Origin: SAR324 cluster bacterium
GTDB lineage: Bacteria; SAR324; NAC60-12
Direction: 5' to 3'
Length of the DNA stretch: 64,000 bases
Assembly: GCA_015231825.1 (NCBI GenBank)
Contig: JADGAV010000010.1
Span: 1 to 64,000, forward strand
Positions within the stretch are counted from its first letter, which is position 1, and each line of letters begins with the position of its first letter. The notes beneath the pieces are model-generated. The model did not search any database. It saw nothing but the letters and a program-made list of their open reading frames with translations, and was not told the origin of the DNA. Positions 46,698 through 61,502 of the stretch are shown here, one piece after another. The position numbers were made by a program, and so were the translations under genes.

Positions 46698-47687
46698 TCA
46701 TGCACTGCGAATCGCACGTTTAACAAGATTCTGCATTAGAGGAACCTTGAAGTGGTTGTAGTTTAGCGGAATAGCACCCCGGACCGCAGCCTGACCAGCC
46801 AGATCCGCAGTTTCCTCAGATTGTTTTTCTCCGCGGACAATGTCTTCAACCACTTTGAGATGGCGTGGTACGCATTCGACGCCACCACAGGCGATACTGA
46901 TCCTGTCAATCACTCCACCCTTGATAAACATGGCAGAAGCAACACTGACAAGCGCAAAATCCCAAGTCTGCCGATCAGCAATTTTTTCGAAAAAAAACTG
47001 GGCTCCGGCCCAGGTCTTGGGGATTTGAATGGTGGTCAGGATTTCCTCGGGTTCAAGAACCGTCATCCGGGTGATGTCAACTCCGGGTCCGATGAAAAAG
47101 TCCTTTGCCTCAACCACCCGCTCGCCTTTTGAACTGCGGATCACCATCTTGGCACCAAGAACCACAAGAACTGGTGCGGTATCGGACGGAGTCACTGCCA
47201 CGCAGCGGTCTGCACCGAAGAGGGTGTGTTCGCGGTTCATGGCTTCCGGTGTGTCTGCGTAGCAGGTGTTTCCTCCTGCCCGATAGCAGGGGAAACCGTC
47301 CCGGTAATACCAGCAGCGGGCATCTTGTGCGGCATTTCCACCAAGTGTTCCTGCATTTCTGATCTGAGGACTGGCAACCCGTCGGGCAGCAGTCGCCAGA
47401 AGGCCGTACTGTTTTTGAATGAGAGGATGCTTTTCTACTTCTGTCAGGGTAGTCAATGCTCCAATTTCGATACCGTCTTTGACTTCACGAATCCCCTTCA
47501 GTTCAGCAATTCCCATGAGATCGATTACTGCTTTCGGATTCTTGACCCGATCCTTGAACCAGTCAAGACTGTCTTTCCCGCCAGCCATCCTCCAACCATC
47601 TTTACCGTAACGGTCAAGAAGCGCCAATGCATCTTCCATTCTGGACGGCTGATAGAGTTCAAAATTTCTCATCATATCTGCAATCAT
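46698..47687 (-). CDS. molybdenum hydroxylase FAD-binding (medium) subunit
   Basis: 329 aa; MRNFELYQPSRMEDALALL, TLTEVEKHPLI, IRNAGTLGGNAAQDARC. Confidence 0.9.
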   Translation of the reverse strand: MIADMMRNFELYQPSRMEDALALLDRYGKDGWRMAGGKDSLDWFKDRVKNPKAVIDLMGIAELKGIREVKDGIEIGALTTLTEVEKHPLIQKQYGLLATAARRVASPQIRNAGTLGGNAAQDARCWYYRDGFPCYRAGGNTCYADTPEAMNREHTLFGADRCVAVTPSDTAPVLVVLGAKMVIRSSKGERVVEAKDFFIGPGVDITRMTVLEPEEILTTIQIPKTWAGAQFFFEKIADRQTWDFALVSVASAMFIKGGVIDRISIACGGVECVPRHLKVVEDIVRGEKQSEETADLAGQAAVRGAIPLNYNHFKVPLMQNLVKRAIRSA

Positions 47688-47699
47688 AGCTTTACTCCA

Positions 47700-50108
47700 T
47701 CATTGGGTGTGAACCTGAAGCGGTTTATTGGATGGCTTCATTCCGGATGCCGCAAGAAGAATCATATCGGGCAATACCGGTGTCCGGTTAAACAAGTGTC
47801 CCCCAAGGGCATCTGAAATTGCGCAAAGCAATGCTGATGCTGCCGATCCCATCACGGGTTCTCCAATCCCTTTTGAACCAATCGGGTTCTGAGAATCAGG
47901 AAGATTGACGGCGATCCCATCCATTTTCTTCGGTAGATCGAGATAACTTGGAGGTTTTTGCTGATGAAATCCCCGACTCGCCGCTCGGCCATACTTGGTG
48001 TCATAAACGTAGCGTTCCATGCATGCCATTCCCAGACCCATGATTGCACCGCCAAGAATTTGGTGGTGCAGGCTTTGCGGATGGATTACAGTTCCGCAGT
48101 CGGCCACTCCCAAATAATCCAGAATTTCTAACTTTCCTGTCTCCAGATCCACTTCGATTTGGACAAATGCCGCCGATAAAGCGGGGGTGGTGGCTGTCTT
48201 CGGTAAATTATCCTTGGCCACGCCAATCAGACCGGTACCGGCAATCATTGCAGCAGATCCCTTTGTGATCGGATTGAGGTCCTTTGGCAATTCTTTGCCG
48301 CTGTATTTTCCTCCCAACTCGATGGCCCTTTTAGCGGCTTGCCCGAATGTCATTGATTTTGAAGAATCTGACTTGTGAACAACCCGTTCATTGTCCAGCT
48401 TATAGTCATCTGGACCGCCTCCCATGTCTTTTGAGGCAATTTCCAACAGCTTGTTTTTTGCGTCAACAGCGGCAGCATGGTTGCTGCGGGTCATGGTAAA
48501 CGAGGTGTTGCTGCCGAATTGACCGAGATTCCAGGGCAGACCTTTTCTGCTGTCACCCCGTTCGATCACGCAGTTTTCCCATTTGCTGTCAAGCACCTCG
48601 GCCACCACCCGGGATGTTCCGGCATAGGAGTAAGTGCCAAGGTTTCCCACACCGGAATGTATGTGCAGTTTCCCATCCGGCATGATGCGGACAAGCCCGT
48701 CGAATCCGGCAGCCCCGGCGGAATGGTATGCCTGACCGATGCCCACGCCAATCACCTTGTTGCCTTTTTTCTGGCCGCTCAGTTTCTTTTTCTCCATCCA
48801 ATTGAAAGCGGCAGCGCCCTTGTCCAGGGCATCTTTCAAATATGCGCTTGTCAGAGGACCAAGACCTTTTCCGCTCCAGATTTTTCCAGTGTTGTCCGGT
48901 GCATTGATCCGGCGGATTGCCAGCCGATCAAGGCCCAATTGACGGGCAGCTTTATCGACGATCGGTTCAATTGCTGCGGCTGTCTGGTTTTCTCCAGGAC
49001 CCCGCTGAGCGGTTCTAGGCGGTGTGTTTGTCAATACGGAAATTCCACGCCATCGCATAGCCAGCGGCTGGTAAACAATCGACATGGCGGTTCCTGCGTT
49101 TCGAAAATCCCAAAATCCCTGATTTGGACCGTTGTCATGAACAATGTAGAGGTCCACAGCAGTGATGCGGCCATCTTCCCGAAATCCCATCTTCACACGT
49201 CCCTGAAATCCAGGCCGTCCGAAGCCGACGTAGTATTCTTCACCCCGGTTGATTCTCATCATTACAGGGCGGCCGACCTTTTTTGACATCAGCGCGGGAA
49301 TCACCATCACAGGGTAGGCCCCTCCTTTGGAACCGAAGCCCCCACCGCAGTTTTCGGCAATTAAGACCAGCTGCTGGGGTTTGATTCCAATAAACTTTGC
49401 AAGGAAAGGATAATTGAATGTTCCGCTTTGAGTGGATCCGTGCAGATAGCACTTTCCGTTTTGCCAGTAGGCCATAGCGGAGCGCGGTTCCTGCGAATGA
49501 TGCGGATAACCTGCCGTAACAAAAGTCTCGTCGAGAACCACCTTTGCATCCTTAAAACCAGCTTCCAGGTCTCCATAGGACCATTCTTCTGCAGGTTTTC
49601 CCATCGGCAGTTTTCCTTCACCGGCTTTCGCAAAATCTTTTGCTGTCCATTTGATTGTCTGAAGCTTGAGCCGGGCATTGGCAACATTCCCGTTCGTCCT
49701 TGCATCCGGTCCTCCCGGATATAAGCTTGTCAGCGGGTCCGTGACAAAAGGGAGCGGCTGCAGATCCACTTTAATTTTTTCCACGGCATCTGCGGCAATT
49801 GATTCATTGATGGCTGCTACAGCCAAAATGGGTTCTCCCACATACAGAGGTTCATTCGTCAAAATTGGATTTGCAGGGTCAGGAAATTTGGGCACATCGT
49901 CTGCTGTCATGATTCCCACGACGCCTTCCATTTTAAGGGCTTCGGACGCATCAATATTGCGGACACGGGCATGAGGCATGGGGCTAAGCAGCAGTTTACA
50001 AAACAACATCCCTTCGGCTCGGAAATCCTCTGAATATTTTGCTTTGCCTGTCACTTTCGCAGCGACATCAGGCGGAGTAAAGTTCTTCCCTATCAGTTTA
50101 TAGCTCAT
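47700..50108 (-). CDS. molybdenum hydroxylase large (Moco) subunit, xanthine dehydrogenase/aldehyde oxidase family
   Basis: Probable ATG 50108 (MSYKLIGKNFTPPDVAAKVTGKAKYSEDF); AENCGGGFGSKGG, RTAQRGPGENQTAAAIEP, KGIGEPVMGSAASALLCAISDALGG. Confidence 0.92.
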   Translation of the reverse strand: MSYKLIGKNFTPPDVAAKVTGKAKYSEDFRAEGMLFCKLLLSPMPHARVRNIDASEALKMEGVVGIMTADDVPKFPDPANPILTNEPLYVGEPILAVAAINESIAADAVEKIKVDLQPLPFVTDPLTSLYPGGPDARTNGNVANARLKLQTIKWTAKDFAKAGEGKLPMGKPAEEWSYGDLEAGFKDAKVVLDETFVTAGYPHHSQEPRSAMAYWQNGKCYLHGSTQSGTFNYPFLAKFIGIKPQQLVLIAENCGGGFGSKGGAYPVMVIPALMSKKVGRPVMMRINRGEEYYVGFGRPGFQGRVKMGFREDGRITAVDLYIVHDNGPNQGFWDFRNAGTAMSIVYQPLAMRWRGISVLTNTPPRTAQRGPGENQTAAAIEPIVDKAARQLGLDRLAIRRINAPDNTGKIWSGKGLGPLTSAYLKDALDKGAAAFNWMEKKKLSGQKKGNKVIGVGIGQAYHSAGAAGFDGLVRIMPDGKLHIHSGVGNLGTYSYAGTSRVVAEVLDSKWENCVIERGDSRKGLPWNLGQFGSNTSFTMTRSNHAAAVDAKNKLLEIASKDMGGGPDDYKLDNERVVHKSDSSKSMTFGQAAKRAIELGGKYSGKELPKDLNPITKGSAAMIAGTGLIGVAKDNLPKTATTPALSAAFVQIEVDLETGKLEILDYLGVADCGTVIHPQSLHHQILGGAIMGLGMACMERYVYDTKYGRAASRGFHQQKPPSYLDLPKKMDGIAVNLPDSQNPIGSKGIGEPVMGSAASALLCAISDALGGHLFNRTPVLPDMILLAASGMKPSNKPLQVHTQ

Positions 50109-50109
50109 C

Positions 50110-50769
50110 TCAAACTCCTCCTGCCACACGCATGATGGCTTTAAGATAGTGGTCATAGGCCCCACACCGACATAGGTTTCCGGACATAGCAAGTGCTGCT
50201 TCTTCTCGGGTGGGTTTTGGATTTACTTTTAACAACGCAACCGCGGACAAAACTTGCCCCGGTGTGCAGAAACCGCATTGTGGACCTAGCTCATCTACAA
50301 AGGCCTGTTGAACCGGGTGAAGTTTCCCTGAAGGACTTGAAAGTCCTTCAACCGTAATAATTTTGCGGTTGCGGACACTGTGTGTGAGCATCGAACAGGA
50401 ATAAAAATCCATATCATCGAGCAATACCGTGCAGGCGCCGCATTCTGCTCGATCGCAACTGAGCTTGACTCCTGTGAGACCAAGTTTGTAGCGAAGTGTC
50501 ATCGCCAGTGTTTCATTTGGCAAAACATCGACCCGGCGAACTTGACCATTGACGTTCAGACTTACAAGACGTTCCACGGTCCCGGATGCAGCAGCCAAGG
50601 CCTGGCCGCCTTGGAGCATATAGCCTGCAGCGGCTACAGTCGCTCCTGAACAAATCACTCCTTTAATAAAATCTCGTCTTGAGATATTTGGGTTTAAGGC
50701 TGACATGGAGCGGTTTTCAGCCTGCTCTGCTGGAACCGGATCCCTTCTGAGTTCTTTTTGATCAAACAT
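50110..50769 (-). CDS. molybdenum hydroxylase [2Fe-2S] (small) subunit with Tat signal
   Basis: ATG 50769 with GGGGAGG upstream; Tat motif SRRDFIKGVICSGATVAAAGY; CDRAECGACTVLLDD, CGFCTPGQVL, CRCGAYDHYLKAI. Confidence 0.92.
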   Translation of the reverse strand: MFDQKELRRDPVPAEQAENRSMSALNPNISRRDFIKGVICSGATVAAAGYMLQGGQALAAASGTVERLVSLNVNGQVRRVDVLPNETLAMTLRYKLGLTGVKLSCDRAECGACTVLLDDMDFYSCSMLTHSVRNRKIITVEGLSSPSGKLHPVQQAFVDELGPQCGFCTPGQVLSAVALLKVNPKPTREEAALAMSGNLCRCGAYDHYLKAIMRVAGGV

Positions 50770-51358
50770 AGACACCTCCCCTGAGTGTTGAGGTTTTATA
50801 AAATTTTTGGAAGAAAACCTGGAAGTTCTTGATACCCGTCCCCCAGATACGGGCAATTAAGGACACTTTTCATGATCCGTGTCCTGCATTTTGGCGGAGT
50901 GCGGACTCGATTCCTTTTACCTTTGTTAGCCAATGTAAAAGGATAAATATTAAATGGATTTTAATACTGACGATTTTTCTGATTTGGTACTGAGAAAAAA
51001 TACGTGTTAACACAGGCGGACTGCTGTGTCAAGGTTTGTATAGCATAATCTTCATTATTCACAGAAAATACATTCCCCCTCCAAGTTACGTAGGTCTCTT
51101 CACGTGAACAGTGAGCATTGCGGAGATTTTTAGAGTTGTATTGCGAGAATGTTTTCAAAATCCTTTGTTTGAAAGCTTCGATAAATTTCAGCGTCATTCA
51201 TCCATTCTCAGCAATGCAAAACAAAAGCACAGGGGAAGAGACAAATGCTATTCAGATGTTTGGTTTGAAACTATTAAAAGATGTGCTAAGAGATGGACGA
51301 AGTCTGATAATTGCGGAATAAGTCGGAATTGATCAAAAAACCCCCTGAAGAGAATCAG

Positions 51359-53977: not shown

Positions 53978-55648
53978 TCAGGAGCCACTTTCATTCAATT
54001 TTTTTAGAATACTGAATCCAAAAGAAGGAAGTTTCAGTACTGAGCCATCCAGCTCTCCCTGTTTCGCAAATGTATGGAGCGGGACAACAGACCAGGTTTC
54101 GGAATCCAAATTAAACTGGCAGGAAGAATCTGACAAATTGCAGGCTATCCGCAAGCTTTGTCCGCCCAGTTTTCGATCAAAAAGAAAACCGTGCTCATCA
54201 TGGAATACCAATTCAAAAGAACCGCTTTGGAGCGCCGGAAGATTGCGCCTCAATCCCAGCATTTCTCGGGTGAGTGCATAGGTTCCCTGGGTTTTTTTCT
54301 GTTCTTCTTTTAAATCAACAGGACTTTTTGCCGGAAGCCAGGGCCTTGCTCCCTGATTGAATCCCTGGTTGGGTTTCTGACAGTCCCAGGCAAAGGGAGT
54401 GCGGCAGCCGTCTCTTCCTTTATATGTCGGCCAGTAATTGATTCCCACCGGATCTTGCAATTCTTCTTTATGAATCGGATACTCCGGCATTTCGATTTCA
54501 TCGCCATAGTATAAAATAGGCGTGCCCTTCAAACATAGGAGAAGCAGCAGCAGGGTTTGATGAATACCCGGTTTATCGGAGTTTCCGCCGCTTCGGGATG
54601 TCAATCTCGGGCAATCGTGGTTGCCCAGTGACCAACTGAGCCAGCCGTCTTCAATCCTGCTCTCGGTCAACTGCAGCAGTCTTGTGACCTTGGGAATGTT
54701 GATTTCTCCCAATAAGCCGAAGTTGTAGACCATGTGGAGATGTTCACTTCCTTTGACATAGCTGCAGGACAAATCAATCAACTCGTCCAGATCCTGGATC
54801 CCTCCCACCTCACCTATTGTTGTCAGATGAGGGCTCAATGCATCCAAAGTCTGGCGAATGTGTTTTAGGCATTGAAAATTTTCAGGGCGGTCCTTTGAAA
54901 ACCGGGTCACATACTTGTCATATTCGAGTCCCTCTCTTGCTTCTAGAGGCACATGGCCTTCCGGTTGTGGTGGATTATCTCTGAGTTCCCGGTCATGCAC
55001 ATAAAAATTAGCGGTATCCAAACGAAATCCGTCAACGCCTTTTTCCGCCCAGAAACGGAACACCTCGGCGACTGCTTCTCGAACTTCAGGATGATACCAG
55101 TTCAAATCGGGCTGTTCTTTTAAGAAAGCGTGATAGTAATATTGCTGACGATCTTCATTGAAGGTCCAGCCAGGGCCGCCAAAGACGCTCAACCAGTTGT
55201 TGGGAAGTCCGCCGCCAGGTTTCGGATCTTGCCAGACGTACCAGTCTGCTTTCGGGTTGCTGCGGTCCTTTTTAGATTCTTGAAACCAGGGATGCTGGTC
55301 TGAACTGTGATTGAGGACCAAATCAATGACTACTTTCATCGCTCGTGCATGAGCCGACTGCACCAGCTCTTCAAAGTCATTGAGGGTGCCAAAAATCGGA
55401 TCGACCCCACAATAATCGCTGACGTCGTAGCCGAAATCTTTCATTGGTGAAGGAAAAAAAGGAGAAAGCCAGATCGTGTCAATTCCCAGGCCGCCTCCCT
55501 CTCCATCATTCAAATAATCCAGTTTTTGGGTGATTCCTTTCAAATCGCCGATACCGTCGTTGTCTGAATCATAAAAACTGCGAGGATAAATCTGATAAAT
55601 CACTGCAGATTTCCACCAATCTGCAGGAAATTGAGATGAAATGATCAT
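53978..55648 (-). CDS. GH13 alpha-glucosidase / oligo-1,6-glucosidase-like
   Basis: 556 aa; WWKSAVIYQIYPRSFYDSDNDGIGDLKGI, VIDLVLNHSSDQHPWF, GVDGFRLDTANF, IGEVGG, LGNHDCPRL. Confidence 0.92.
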   Translation of the reverse strand: MIISSQFPADWWKSAVIYQIYPRSFYDSDNDGIGDLKGITQKLDYLNDGEGGGLGIDTIWLSPFFPSPMKDFGYDVSDYCGVDPIFGTLNDFEELVQSAHARAMKVVIDLVLNHSSDQHPWFQESKKDRSNPKADWYVWQDPKPGGGLPNNWLSVFGGPGWTFNEDRQQYYYHAFLKEQPDLNWYHPEVREAVAEVFRFWAEKGVDGFRLDTANFYVHDRELRDNPPQPEGHVPLEAREGLEYDKYVTRFSKDRPENFQCLKHIRQTLDALSPHLTTIGEVGGIQDLDELIDLSCSYVKGSEHLHMVYNFGLLGEINIPKVTRLLQLTESRIEDGWLSWSLGNHDCPRLTSRSGGNSDKPGIHQTLLLLLLCLKGTPILYYGDEIEMPEYPIHKEELQDPVGINYWPTYKGRDGCRTPFAWDCQKPNQGFNQGARPWLPAKSPVDLKEEQKKTQGTYALTREMLGLRRNLPALQSGSFELVFHDEHGFLFDRKLGGQSLRIACNLSDSSCQFNLDSETWSVVPLHTFAKQGELDGSVLKLPSFGFSILKKLNESGS

Positions 55649-55857
55649 TGGAAAATTGTAGAAGAAAATCTTTGATTTAATTTTACGGGACTGAATTGAT
55701 CCATTTGAATTTTTTTGTTTTAAATTCAGTCAATCCATTTTCAGGGGCCGGAGGGTTTACCCGTGAAGCCCACCGAATAGCAGGGAAGTGGTGAGGCTTT
55801 TAAAAGGAACCCACTGCTTAAGGGCAGATAAAAGTTGTTCCTATGTAAAACGAAGTG

Positions 55858-57000
55858 TCAGACTGTTGTCAGCATTTCTTGCTCATATGTGACGGTTCTT
55901 GGAAAAGCACGGTCACTGTCGTTGAAGAGATGACAATAATCGCGCGGGATTGAGATTTCAATCATATCTCCACGATTTGCCAATACGTCTCCTTCTTTAC
56001 GCAGTGTCAGCAATTCATTAGATCCTGCAAGCTCCAGATAAAACAAGGATGCTTCTCCGAGATGCTCCGCGTAGGCGACTTTTCCTTTGGCTGTTGAGGA
56101 AGCTCCCTGTTGATCAAAATGTTCGGGACGGATGCCTAGAGTCACTTTCATGCCCGGCTGTGCGGCGGAAGCATCCACTGAGGCTTCCACCTGAGAGCCG
56201 TCCGGCAATTTGATGGTGCTTTTGCTGCCGTCGGAACTTACCAGTTCTCCATCAATAAAGTTCATTTTTGGTGATCCGATAAATCCTGCTACAAATTTGT
56301 TGCATGGTTGGTGGTACAGTTCCAGAGGTGAGCCCACCTGTGCCACAGATCCGTCTTTGATCACGGCTTCTCCAGCATTGAGTAAAACAATTTTATTGGC
56401 CAGGGTCATTGCCTCAACCTGATCATGGGTAACGTAAATCATGCTGGCGCCCAGATCAGAGTGCAGTTTGGCAATTTCGATGCGGGTCTGAACCCGTAAC
56501 GCGGCATCTAAATTTGAAAGAGGTTCGTCAAATAAAAACACTCCAGGCTCGCGTACAATTGCCCGGCCGATGGCAACACGCTGGCGCTGACCACCCGACA
56601 GCTCCTTGGGCAGGCGCGTGAGCAGCTGATCGAGCTGAAGAATATCCCCAGCTTTGCGGACACGCTCGTCAATGGTTTGCGTGTCGGTTTTAGCAAGTCT
56701 CAAACCGAAGGCCATGTTTTCGTAAACCGTCATATGCGGATAGAGGGCATAGGATTGAAATACCATGGCAACTCCTCGTTCGGGAGGAGGAAGGTTGTTG
56801 ACACGTTTTCCGCCGATGTGCAGGTCGCCTTTGGTAATGTCTTCAAGTCCTGCGACGAGGCGCAGCAGGGTGGATTTTCCGCAACCTGAAGGACCCACAA
56901 AAACAACAAACTCACCGTCTTCTATATCCAAATTGACGTTTTCAATGATTCGTTCCTTGCCAAACTGTTTGTATACGCCACGCATTCGAATTTCGCTCAT
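55858..57000 (-). CDS. ABC transporter ATP-binding protein (MalK/UgpC/AglK family)
   Basis: 380 aa; GPSGCGKSTLLRLVAGLE, LSGGQRQRVAIGRAIVREP, FLFDEPLSNLDA, C-terminal TOBE region. Confidence 0.93.
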   Translation of the reverse strand: MSEIRMRGVYKQFGKERIIENVNLDIEDGEFVVFVGPSGCGKSTLLRLVAGLEDITKGDLHIGGKRVNNLPPPERGVAMVFQSYALYPHMTVYENMAFGLRLAKTDTQTIDERVRKAGDILQLDQLLTRLPKELSGGQRQRVAIGRAIVREPGVFLFDEPLSNLDAALRVQTRIEIAKLHSDLGASMIYVTHDQVEAMTLANKIVLLNAGEAVIKDGSVAQVGSPLELYHQPCNKFVAGFIGSPKMNFIDGELVSSDGSKSTIKLPDGSQVEASVDASAAQPGMKVTLGIRPEHFDQQGASSTAKGKVAYAEHLGEASLFYLELAGSNELLTLRKEGDVLANRGDMIEISIPRDYCHLFNDSDRAFPRTVTYEQEMLTTV

Positions 57001-57112
57001 GTGTTTCTCCTGTAACTGTTTTTTGCTTTTAATTCACACCTGATGAACCGATGGTTTGAGATGCTGTTTTTTCTGTGTCCGGAAAAATTATTGTTTCCGG
57101 TTCAATGGTTCC

Positions 57113-57964
57113 TTATCCTTTGACAGCACCCGCAGTCAGGCCTGATACGATTCGGCGTTGGAAGATCAAAACGAGTGCCACCACTGGAATCGTCACAACG
57201 ACCGAACCGGCCATGATGCTGCCCCAGGGCAATTCGAATTCGCTGGCTCCTCCCATACTGGCGATCGCAACAGGGACCGTACGGGTTTCGTTCTGAAGGA
57301 TGAACGTCAAAGCAAACAGGAATTCATTCCAGGCGGCAATAAATGCCAGCAGTCCGGTTGTCACCAATGCCGGCCACAATAGTGGCATAAATACTTTGGT
57401 AATGATCACCCAGGGACTGGCGCCATCCATAATGGAGGCTTCTTCCAATTCTTTGGGAAGATCCCGCATAAAGGTGGTGAGCACCCAAACGGTAAAAGGC
57501 AGCGTGAAAATCATATAGGTGATCATCAACCCGGGAAGACTGTTGTAGAGACCCATCCAGCGAATCAATTCGAACATGCCTGACAATACTGCGACTTGAG
57601 GAAACATCGAGACGGCAAGGATGGTGAGCAGCAGGAGGCCTCTCCCTCTGAATTTAACCCTTCCTAATGCAAAAGAGGCGGTCACCCCCAAAAACAGCGA
57701 CAGGACCACCACGGCAACTGCGACAATCACCGAATTAAAAATATTTAGGTGGAAAGGCTGCTCTGTAAAGGCAGACACGTAGTTTGAAAAATCAAGAACT
57801 TTCGGATAGTAATCCACTTTAAAAAGTGCAGAACCTGATTTAAATGAGGTTACGATGGCATAGTAGAATGGAAAGACCGAGAATATCACCAACAAAAGAA
57901 CCAGAAAGAAAAGACCAACTTTTTTTAAAATTTTAATTTCCTGCATTGCACTCCTCTCAATCAA
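57113..57964 (-). CDS. sugar ABC transporter permease (MalG-like)
   Basis: 283 aa; EAA motif EEASIMDGASPWVIITKVFMPLLWPAL; QRRIVSGLTAGAVKG C-terminus. Confidence 0.92.
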   Translation of the reverse strand: MIERSAMQEIKILKKVGLFFLVLLLVIFSVFPFYYAIVTSFKSGSALFKVDYYPKVLDFSNYVSAFTEQPFHLNIFNSVIVAVAVVVLSLFLGVTASFALGRVKFRGRGLLLLTILAVSMFPQVAVLSGMFELIRWMGLYNSLPGLMITYMIFTLPFTVWVLTTFMRDLPKELEEASIMDGASPWVIITKVFMPLLWPALVTTGLLAFIAAWNEFLFALTFILQNETRTVPVAIASMGGASEFELPWGSIMAGSVVVTIPVVALVLIFQRRIVSGLTAGAVKG

Positions 57965-58916
57965 ATTTTACTTTGCCTGCCATCAAGTACACCACAGTGC
58001 ACCCGGCGACGATAAAGAAAAGCACCGTGGAAGCAGCAGATCCCAGTCCCACGTTCTGGAACTCCACGAGCTGTTGGCGGGCGTAGACTGACATTGACAT
58101 AGTGGCTTCGCTGTTAGAGGTGAGAACATAAATCAGGTCAAAAATTCTCAAGGCGTCCAGCAACCTGAAAATTATGGCAACCATCAGGGCGGGCTTGATT
58201 AACGGGAGAGTCACTTTAAAGAAAACCCGGACAGGATGAATGCCGTCAACATAAGCTGCTTCGTAGCAGTCGGAAGGCAACATCTGCAGTGCTGCCAGTA
58301 TCAGCAGAGCCATAAAGGGAGTGGTCTTCCAGACATCAGCCATAATGACCGCGTTCATTGCCAGATCATTGTTGGCAGTCCAGGCAAGTGGAGAATTGAT
58401 GAGCCCGAAAAACATCAAGATGTCGTTGATCACCCCGTACTGATCGTGCAGCATCCATCCCCACATTTTGGCAGAAACAATGGTAGGAATCGCCCAGGGG
58501 ATCAGCATGGCCGCCCTTACCAGAGCACGCCCTGGAAATTTGGCATTCAATATCAGTGCTACAATCAGACCCAATACTGTTTCCAGGGTTACAGAAATCA
58601 TCGAGAAGTAAACGGTGTTCCAGACAGAAATCCACCATTTACCGTCAGCCAGCACACCAACCCATTCGCCATCGCCATCGCCATAGTCGATGTAGGTGAG
58701 ATAATTTTCCAAACCAATAAAGTTCACGTTGCCTAAATCCGACAAATTGGCATCCGTCAAGCTGAACCAGATGGTTCGTGCCAACGGCCATCCTGCCACC
58801 ATTAAGATAATAACGATCATGGGGGTCAGGAAAAGCCAGGCAGCCCTGACTCTGCTTTGAGTCAAGCGCGACTTTTCTTCGGGGATGTCTACTGCAGCAT
58901 TCATAAGCTCTCCCAC
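57957..58916 (-). CDS. sugar ABC transporter permease (MalF-like)
   Basis: 319 aa; EAAYVDGIHPVRVFFKVTLPLIKPALM; overlaps the following permease start by 8 nt. Confidence 0.92.
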   Translation of the reverse strand: MGELMNAAVDIPEEKSRLTQSRVRAAWLFLTPMIVIILMVAGWPLARTIWFSLTDANLSDLGNVNFIGLENYLTYIDYGDGDGEWVGVLADGKWWISVWNTVYFSMISVTLETVLGLIVALILNAKFPGRALVRAAMLIPWAIPTIVSAKMWGWMLHDQYGVINDILMFFGLINSPLAWTANNDLAMNAVIMADVWKTTPFMALLILAALQMLPSDCYEAAYVDGIHPVRVFFKVTLPLIKPALMVAIIFRLLDALRIFDLIYVLTSNSEATMSMSVYARQQLVEFQNVGLGSAASTVLFFIVAGCTVVYLMAGKVKFD

Positions 58917-58967
58917 GTTAAGTTGGTGTGCGACATTTAAAACTGAGTTTTCTGTGCCATTAAAGGA

Positions 58968-60257
58968 TTACCAGCTCTTCCCTCCTTTACTCATTCGTTT
59001 TAACTCTCGATCCAGCTGCTTCAGACTGACTGCTGCTGTTTGTGAACCAGAAAGGACACGATGAACGGAATTAAAAAAGGCGTTGCTGACCTGCGGATAT
59101 TTGCTGCCGGTCACTGTTGAGGGTCGGGGAGAGGCATTGACAAAGGTTGTAAGCAGTGAACCAAAGAAGGGATTGGCAGCCAGTACTTCTTTGTCCTCAT
59201 ACAATTTGGCAATAGTGGGATTGAAAGAACCGACGATGGCGCGGTGTTTCTGATTTTCATAAGAAGTTACAAAACGGACAAATTCCGCGGCAACTTCCGG
59301 ATTTTTTGAATATTTTGAAACGGCCAGCTGCCATCCGCCCAATGCAGCCGCTCTCGGTCCTCCTTTAGCGCCGGAAGGCAGAGGTGAAACTCCGACCTTT
59401 TCTTTGATTACACTGTCATCGCTTTGGGAAAGAGACCATGCATAGGGCCAGTTGCGCATAAAGACAGCGTTTCCTCCCTGGAATACTCCACGGGCATCTT
59501 CTTCTGCGTAGTTGAGAACTCCTTCCGGGGAAATGGTACCAATCCACTTTGCGGCCTGATCAATAGCCTTGATCGCTTTGGCGTTATTGATTGTTATTTT
59601 TCCGTTTGGTGCGACTACACTGCCACCATCGTTGCTGATTACCCATTCAATTGCATCACAGGTCAGGCCTTCATAGGCTCGTCCCTGCCAGACAAATCCC
59701 CACATTTCCTTGTTGCCGGCATCACGTTCCGCCTTTTGAATTTTCGCTGCAATTCGTTCCAGGTCTGCCCATGTTTCCGGAGCTGATTCACCATGTTTTT
59801 GCAGTAAATCTTTGCGGTAGTAGAGAACACCTGCATCGGTATAAAAAGGCATGCCTACCAGTTTTCCGTCAACCGTATTGTTGTCAACAATCGGCTTGAA
59901 GTGTTCTTTTTCAAGGCCCTTCATATGTGGTGTTAAATCAATCATATGATTGGCGAGTACGCCGGGCCAGATCACATCAATTTTAAAGACATCAATATCG
60001 TCGGCTCCCGCAGCCAGAATCTGTTGATACAAGGATAAAATTTCTGTTGCGGTTTTCGGCATAGAAACAATTTTGACTTCATGCCCGGTTTTGGCTTTGA
60101 ATGAGGCTGCGACTTCATTGCACAATTTTAGTTGAATGCCAACTGTGTCGCATGTATAGGAAATGGTGTCCGCCTGAGCGGAGAAGGCAGACAAGAAAAT
60201 TGTGAGAACTCCAACAACACCTGAAAATAATGCTTTCATTTTTACCTCAATATTCAA
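58968..60257 (-). CDS. sugar ABC transporter extracellular substrate-binding protein
   Basis: 429 aa; signal peptide; family 1 SBP features (IDVFKIDVIWPGVLANHMIDLTP, GMPFYTDAGVLYYRKDLL, GGNAVFMRNWPYAW). Confidence 0.92.
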   Translation of the reverse strand: MNIEVKMKALFSGVVGVLTIFLSAFSAQADTISYTCDTVGIQLKLCNEVAASFKAKTGHEVKIVSMPKTATEILSLYQQILAAGADDIDVFKIDVIWPGVLANHMIDLTPHMKGLEKEHFKPIVDNNTVDGKLVGMPFYTDAGVLYYRKDLLQKHGESAPETWADLERIAAKIQKAERDAGNKEMWGFVWQGRAYEGLTCDAIEWVISNDGGSVVAPNGKITINNAKAIKAIDQAAKWIGTISPEGVLNYAEEDARGVFQGGNAVFMRNWPYAWSLSQSDDSVIKEKVGVSPLPSGAKGGPRAAALGGWQLAVSKYSKNPEVAAEFVRFVTSYENQKHRAIVGSFNPTIAKLYEDKEVLAANPFFGSLLTTFVNASPRPSTVTGSKYPQVSNAFFNSVHRVLSGSQTAAVSLKQLDRELKRMSKGGKSW

Positions 60258-60887: not shown

Positions 60888-61502
60888 CTAGGAATTTTTT
60901 TGCGCACTTTGGACCAATTGCTCCAGGACGTCATAAGGTTGAGCACCCACTACCATGTATTGACCGGCAGCGAATGTCGGCACTCCCGTCACCCCCATTT
61001 GACGAGCCTTGCCCCAATCCAGATCAACCGCTTCCCTGAGCCGTCGTTTCTCCAGCACTTCACGAGCCTCTTCTACCGGCAATTCTGCTTTTTCTGTTAT
61101 GTGCAGCAGTTCTTCAATTTCTCCAATATTCTTGCCTTCAACGAAATATGCACGGTATAATCCTGCGTGGATTCGCTGACCATCGGGTTGACTGTCCGAC
61201 CATTTGGACAGCTCTTGAGCCAATCGGCTGTTATAGGTCATGCTTCGTTTCCCATAAGGAAGTCCTTCTTCTTCCATCAGGTTTTTCATCCGTTCATTCT
61301 TGGCGGCAATATCTGCATCAGATGATCCAAACAAGTCTTTCAGACTTCTTCCCTCTTGCGGGGTTTCGGGATGAAGGGGGAAGTAACTCCACTGGAGATC
61401 AACATTGTAATTTTCTTTAAGCTTTTGAATACGCCCGGTACTCAGATAACACCATGGTCAGACAATATCAGTGAACACGGTTACAACAACTGGATCTTCC
61501 AT
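60888..61502 (-). CDS. probable selenocysteine-containing DsbA/FrnE-family thiol oxidoreductase (in-frame TGA at 61458..61460 read as Sec)
   Basis: ATG 61502: MEDPVVVTVFTDIV-U-PWCYLSTGRIQKLKENYNVDLQWSYFPLHPETPQEGRSLKDLFGSSDADIAAKN... continuing in frame into ORF 60888..61334 (cis-Pro region GVTGVPTFAAGQYMVVGAQPYDVLEQLV). 205 codons including stop. The TGA replaces the first Cys of the family CPWC active site. Confidence 0.82.
61426..61444 (-). promoter_or_regulatory. candidate bacterial SECIS-like hairpin
   Basis: Minus-strand RNA UGAGUAC-CGGGC-GUAUUCA: 7-bp stem (one G-U), 5-nt loop with G at its second position; 20 nt between the UGA and the apical loop, plus a partially paired lower stem (61421..61450). 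Confidence 0.6.

Follow-up and report, generated by a model that had tools for sequence, protein, structure and literature searches.

An in-frame TGA at the catalytic codon of a FrnE-like oxidoreductase gene from a SAR324 bacterium is a conserved, probable selenocysteine codon

In the DNA analysed here, a stretch of 64,000 nucleotides from a SAR324 cluster bacterium that we refer to as the window, a minus-strand frame resembling the DsbA-family protein FrnE contains a TGA exactly where the first redox cysteine is expected. We asked if this codon specifies selenocysteine (Sec) or marks a damaged gene, and what kind of enzyme the gene encodes. A preliminary description had proposed a 204-aa frame opening with an ATG at 61502 and containing a single TGA. 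Re-translation of the minus strand confirmed this in every detail: the protein reads MEDPVVVTVFTDIV-U-PWCYLSTGRIQKL..., and the TGA is its sole internal stop (Table 1). The same description had called the listed ORF at this locus a truncation, and indeed this 148-aa frame, opening with an internal TTG, has neither the N-terminal strand nor the active site. Ordinary gene finders shorten the gene because they take the Sec codon TGA for a stop. Standard ORF calling in this way strips off the active site, and truncated annotations are likely for many of the gene's homologues.

Table 1. Positions of the selenoprotein gene and its elements in the window
Feature	Position	Strand	Details and basis
Gene for a Sec-containing FrnE/DsbA-family oxidoreductase	60888..61502	minus	ATG 61502, TAG 60890-60888, 204 aa; translation with TGA = U
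In-frame TGA, codon 15, read as Sec, first residue of U-P-W-C	61458..61460	minus	Sequence and aligned homologues
TGT codon, Cys18, second redox residue of UPWC	61449..61451	minus	Translation; column invariant in the homologue alignment
Pro175 of the GVPTF motif, predicted cis-Pro position facing the active site	60978..60980	minus	Invariant P175; precedes strand 176-179 of the model
Predicted bacterial SECIS hairpin	61426..61444	minus	7-bp stem 61444-61438/61432-61426; loop CGGGC 61437-61433; fold and covariation
Shortened ORF of the standard ORF list	60888..61334	minus	Internal TTG start; artefact of TGA read as stop

Both sequence and fold place the protein in the FrnE subfamily of the DsbA family. 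A profile search matched residues 7-197 to the Pfam DSBA domain (PF01323, E 5.4e-33), helix 1 beginning at [CU]PWC, and the nearest solved structure by either measure was the FrnE of Deinococcus radiodurans (DrFrnE). DrFrnE was the best PDB relative by sequence (E 1e-21), its CPWC being aligned to the TGA-PWC of the window gene, and one of its structures, 5COH, was the best PDB fold match (TM 0.91, 28% identity) of an AlphaFold model of the window protein with a pLDDT of 94.8. In this model helix 16-31 begins directly after U15; U15 is predicted to lie where the attacking Cys is classically found, and Pro175, before strand 176-179, at the cis-Pro place of the thioredoxin fold. The U/C-P-x-C motif was kept in all rows of the homologue alignment, with W replaced by F in two of them, and Cys18 is the only Cys among the 204 residues of the window protein, beside U15. 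Homology to DR_0659 points to membership in COG2761 and cd03024 (the FrnE subfamily). No fitting NCBIfam model scored above its cut-off, the best being the Rcas_1661 (seleno)lipoprotein model with 24 bits against a cut-off of 190. No signal peptide was seen in the window protein, suggesting that it is cytoplasmic.

One alternative to Sec is that the TGA arose from a Cys codon by nonsense mutation or sequencing error, leaving a pseudogene or an assembly fault; a single substitution, from TGT or TGC, would suffice, and the window genome is a draft. We searched 98 genomes with the Cys-substituted window protein and then checked the frames. Apart from the window genome itself, 25 genomes had TGA-bearing homologues; identity was 42-59% for nearly all of these and 29% for one. 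Among the best 80 named loci, aligned codon 15 was TGA in 64 and a Cys codon in the other 16 (TGC in 11, TGT in 5), and the TGA homologues in this set contained no other stop. Most TGA homologues were 47-62% identical to the window protein with intact frames, and they came from several phyla, in assemblies made by different groups: SAR324/Lambdaproteobacteria, Alpha-, Beta- and Gammaproteobacteria, Rokubacteria and Acidobacteria. Judged from these alignments, the TGA is a conserved codon and not damage, as the preliminary description had argued in calling a random nonsense mutation at the catalytic codon unlikely. The random frame damage in relatives that it had named as a sign against Sec was likewise not what we found, the frames downstream of the TGA being intact. 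Since the TGA is conserved, and since a covarying hairpin stands behind it (below), we consider the pseudogene or error explanation refuted, with a negligible probability of being right.

Three individual records among the homologues deserve comment. In one (G009, L034:1489-2100) an additional TAA lies close to the C-terminal end, and another (G025, L041:1489-1899) is split over two frames; these are isolated damage or assembly errors of single genomes. A third, L074, belongs to a record titled Bordetella parapertussis (MAG MH-08apr19-17) that carries the Sec gene and groups with environmental Proteobacteria, and its title is probably a binning or naming error.

Bacterial SECIS elements lie about 16-37 nt after the UGA and have a G early in a short loop. 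The preliminary description had left the presence of such an element to be checked, and a SECIS-like hairpin is indeed found inside the coding sequence. It starts 16 nt downstream of the UGA's first base, has a 7-bp stem and a 5-nt loop whose second position is G, and shows compensatory changes. Across 23 homologues, 91.9% of cells could pair, compared to 24-44% when the partners were slid; three pairs showed changes on both sides (C-G/U-A/G-C, A-U/G-C and U-A/C-G), and the covariation score was above all 500 shuffles. At pair 18-34 only the window has G-C, which is compensatory relative to the common C-G, and at pair 20-32 about 10 of the 23 sequences have a U-U mismatch. The pairing follows the Sec codon: on average 6.8 of the 7 positions were paired in 77 distinct Sec sequences vs 3.3 of 7 in 16 Cys homologues, in which both the hairpin and the STGRIE peptide that it overlies are gone. 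Codon choice under the hairpin in Sec genes was also skewed with respect to the rest of the same genes, for Ser AGT (94% vs 7%), Arg CGT (76% vs 11%), Gly GGG (96% vs 21%), Ile ATT (89% vs 24%) and Leu CTC (100% vs 22%). The window hairpin did not exceed shuffled sequence in stability (z 0.54) and a Cys control folded as well, into a different structure, so the case for a SECIS is made by conservation and covariation. A search of Rfam gave no match for the hairpin.

Decoding UGA as Sec requires dedicated machinery, and the preliminary description had held that a genome without sel genes would speak against its reading. This objection falls away: the window genome (a draft of 5.8 Mb in 81 contigs, 93.5% complete), searched family by family, encodes SelA (539 bits), SelB (383 bits), SelD (379 bits) and, as the product expected of selC, a tRNA-Sec with anticodon UCA, each above its family's curated cut-off. 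Among the 26 TGA-bearing genomes, selA was found in 24, and the two without it are only 75% and 80% complete; for comparison, a hand count in which kinship was not controlled found selA in 43 of the 72 other genomes. The selD gene of the window genome (L050:1470-1560) has an in-frame TGA of its own, in the context CG-U-AAK, and judging by that context SelD is likely itself a selenoprotein.

We also considered that TGA might be reassigned to Cys or Trp throughout the genome, with no selenium involved; a TGA-to-Cys code would likewise yield CPWC at the active site. However, 15 of the window's 34 non-overlapping ORFs with 200 aa or more terminate in TGA, which is therefore a normal stop there, the genome has the whole Sec machinery including tRNA-Sec(UCA), and the hairpin is tied to the TGA and absent with Cys codons. 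These observations reduce the chance of such a reassignment to almost nothing. A search of the window by redox-motif context for other genes with in-frame TGA codons yielded no convincing candidate by eye.

Our preferred reading, to which we assign a probability of about 0.96, is that the gene product is a FrnE-like disulfide oxidoreductase of the DsbA family that resides in the cytoplasm and attacks through Sec (U15-P-W-C18), the UGA being decoded via SelB and the SECIS. The sequence evidence argues strongly for Sec insertion at codon 15. In the proposed mechanism, the SECIS hairpin about 16 nt downstream of UGA codon 15 would recruit SelB-GTP-Sec-tRNA(Sec) to decode that codon; the selenolate of Sec, placed where helix 1 begins, would then attack a substrate disulfide, and Cys18 would resolve the mixed selenenylsulfide. 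By analogy with D. radiodurans FrnE, the enzyme may work in the direction of a reductase or an isomerase. Its regenerator is likeliest an external reductant of the thioredoxin or glutathione type, because the regenerating C-terminal CXXXXC of the DrFrnE type is absent. A more elaborate possibility is that the UGA also serves as a regulatory switch, giving Sec when selenium is available and termination or another residue when it is not, so that two protein forms would arise. The efficiency of Sec insertion depends on selenium supply, which would fit a switch, as would the internal TTG start with its 148-aa frame, but without the first strand and the active site the short form should be inactive, and we regard a switch as unlikely. 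With Sec at the catalytic position as the preferred reading, we conclude that the gene is real and widespread and that its product is a genuine selenium-containing redox enzyme, meaning that bacteria of the SAR324 type employ selenium for thiol-redox chemistry in a FrnE-like enzyme.

The coexistence of Sec and Cys forms raises the question of which came first. A phylogenetic tree, rooted at its midpoint and with several weak deep forks, needs four Sec/Cys changes. The Cys sequences of Rhodospirillales type, 15 in number, group in a single clade (100/97) located among Sec sequences, and a single Cys sequence from a betaproteobacterium sits inside a Sec group; L044, L045, L040 and L043 have very long branches. 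On this midpoint-rooted tree Sec is likely ancestral in the FrnE subfamily, and the sequences suggest that conversion from Sec to Cys was accompanied by release of the STGRIE/STVRIE peptide. We lean slightly towards a fuller scenario in which Sec is ancestral and Cys derived, the SECIS dictates the STGRIE/STVRIE peptide after the active site, and the Cys reverters (one Rhodospirillales clade and a betaproteobacterium) swapped in an unrelated peptide, mostly GDNRVK. If true, the subfamily would clearly illustrate how an RNA signal can constrain a catalytic helix and be released once Sec is lost. Sec and Cys forms with or without the SECIS-coded peptide also make a tidy system in which to measure the benefit of Sec in a DsbA-fold enzyme.

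One of the long-branched sequences, L043 (L043:1489-2145, genome G033, from the same order), is a distant FrnE/DsbA homologue with 29% identity and a UPFC motif that again has TGA at the catalytic codon. Its TGA lies on a branch with Cys outgroups and its predicted hairpin differs, and its Sec may have a separate origin.

The surroundings of the gene offered no functional clue: in the neighbourhoods of the 80 named loci, the window's neighbours were not shared, save for an ABC ATPase clustering with four other proteins. Downstream of the selenoprotein gene and on the same strand, the window carries what looks like a set of sugar ABC transporter genes along with one for an alpha-amylase-family enzyme (53978-60257), which is not common to homologues of the selenoprotein gene elsewhere. 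Further along is an apparent three-gene xanthine-dehydrogenase-like set (46698-50856), with a 2Fe-2S subunit at 50110-50856 (Pfam Fer2/Fer2_2) and a large subunit at 47700-50192; the frame past the TGA stop of the large subunit resembles an FAD subunit by eye.

Among known proteins, the 2-hydroxychromene-2-carboxylate (HCCA) isomerases and kappa-class GSTs have a DsbA-like fold with an inserted helical domain in common with the window protein, although their match in the fold search was weaker (best E about 2e-9 vs 1e-15 for DrFrnE). They perform glutathione-dependent chemistry without a CXXC redox pair, and the U/C-P-x-C motif in all alignment rows rules out this identity. DrFrnE (DR_0659; PDB 5CNW, 5CO3, 5COH, 5CP1 and 5XWH) shares the fold and the active-site position with the window protein and is predicted to be cytoplasmic, as FrnE proteins are generally described, namely as predicted cytoplasmic thiol oxidoreductases (PMC8945050). 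In DrFrnE the first redox site is Cys, where the window protein has Sec, and a C-terminal CXXXXC (residues 239-244) contributes to regeneration (PMC8945050). This motif has no counterpart in the shorter window protein, where Cys18 and U15 stand alone among the 204 residues, and in that respect the window protein is not an enzyme of the DrFrnE type; the CXXXXC is missing too from the FrnE proteins of D. maricopensis and S. roseofulvus (PMC8945050).

The novelty that the preliminary description implied was overrated. Literature on FrnE as a selenoprotein, or with selenocysteine, gave no relevant match, the family being filed under DsbA-like proteins. Under that name, a 2005 Sargasso Sea study reports Sec-containing proteins with a UXXC motif, nine sequences in all, assigned to COG2761 (PMC1088965), which is the COG of D. 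radiodurans frnE/DR0659 according to another paper (PMC1978522). A later survey includes the Sec DsbA-like family (PMC1794560), a 2016 paper counts 45 such proteins in 41 bacteria (PMC5029168), the family has been found in two Asgard sequences (PMC11227280), and a 2026 review lists it as 'DsbA-like protein form 1' with PF01323 and UxxC (PMC13188914). The only mention of SAR324 that we found in the selenoprotein literature is in a table of PMC5029168, with an entry covering two single-cell genomes. SAR324 members, the covariation of the subfamily's SECIS and the locked codon choice beneath it, all seen here, are not described for the DsbA-like family in the available portions of PMC1088965 and PMC13188914. 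The published DsbA-like selenoproteins resemble the window protein in the PF01323 domain, the Sec-first UxxC motif and a TGA followed by a downstream SECIS, and their COG2761 is also that of FrnE. It is well supported that the window gene is a new SAR324 member of a selenoprotein family known since 2005.
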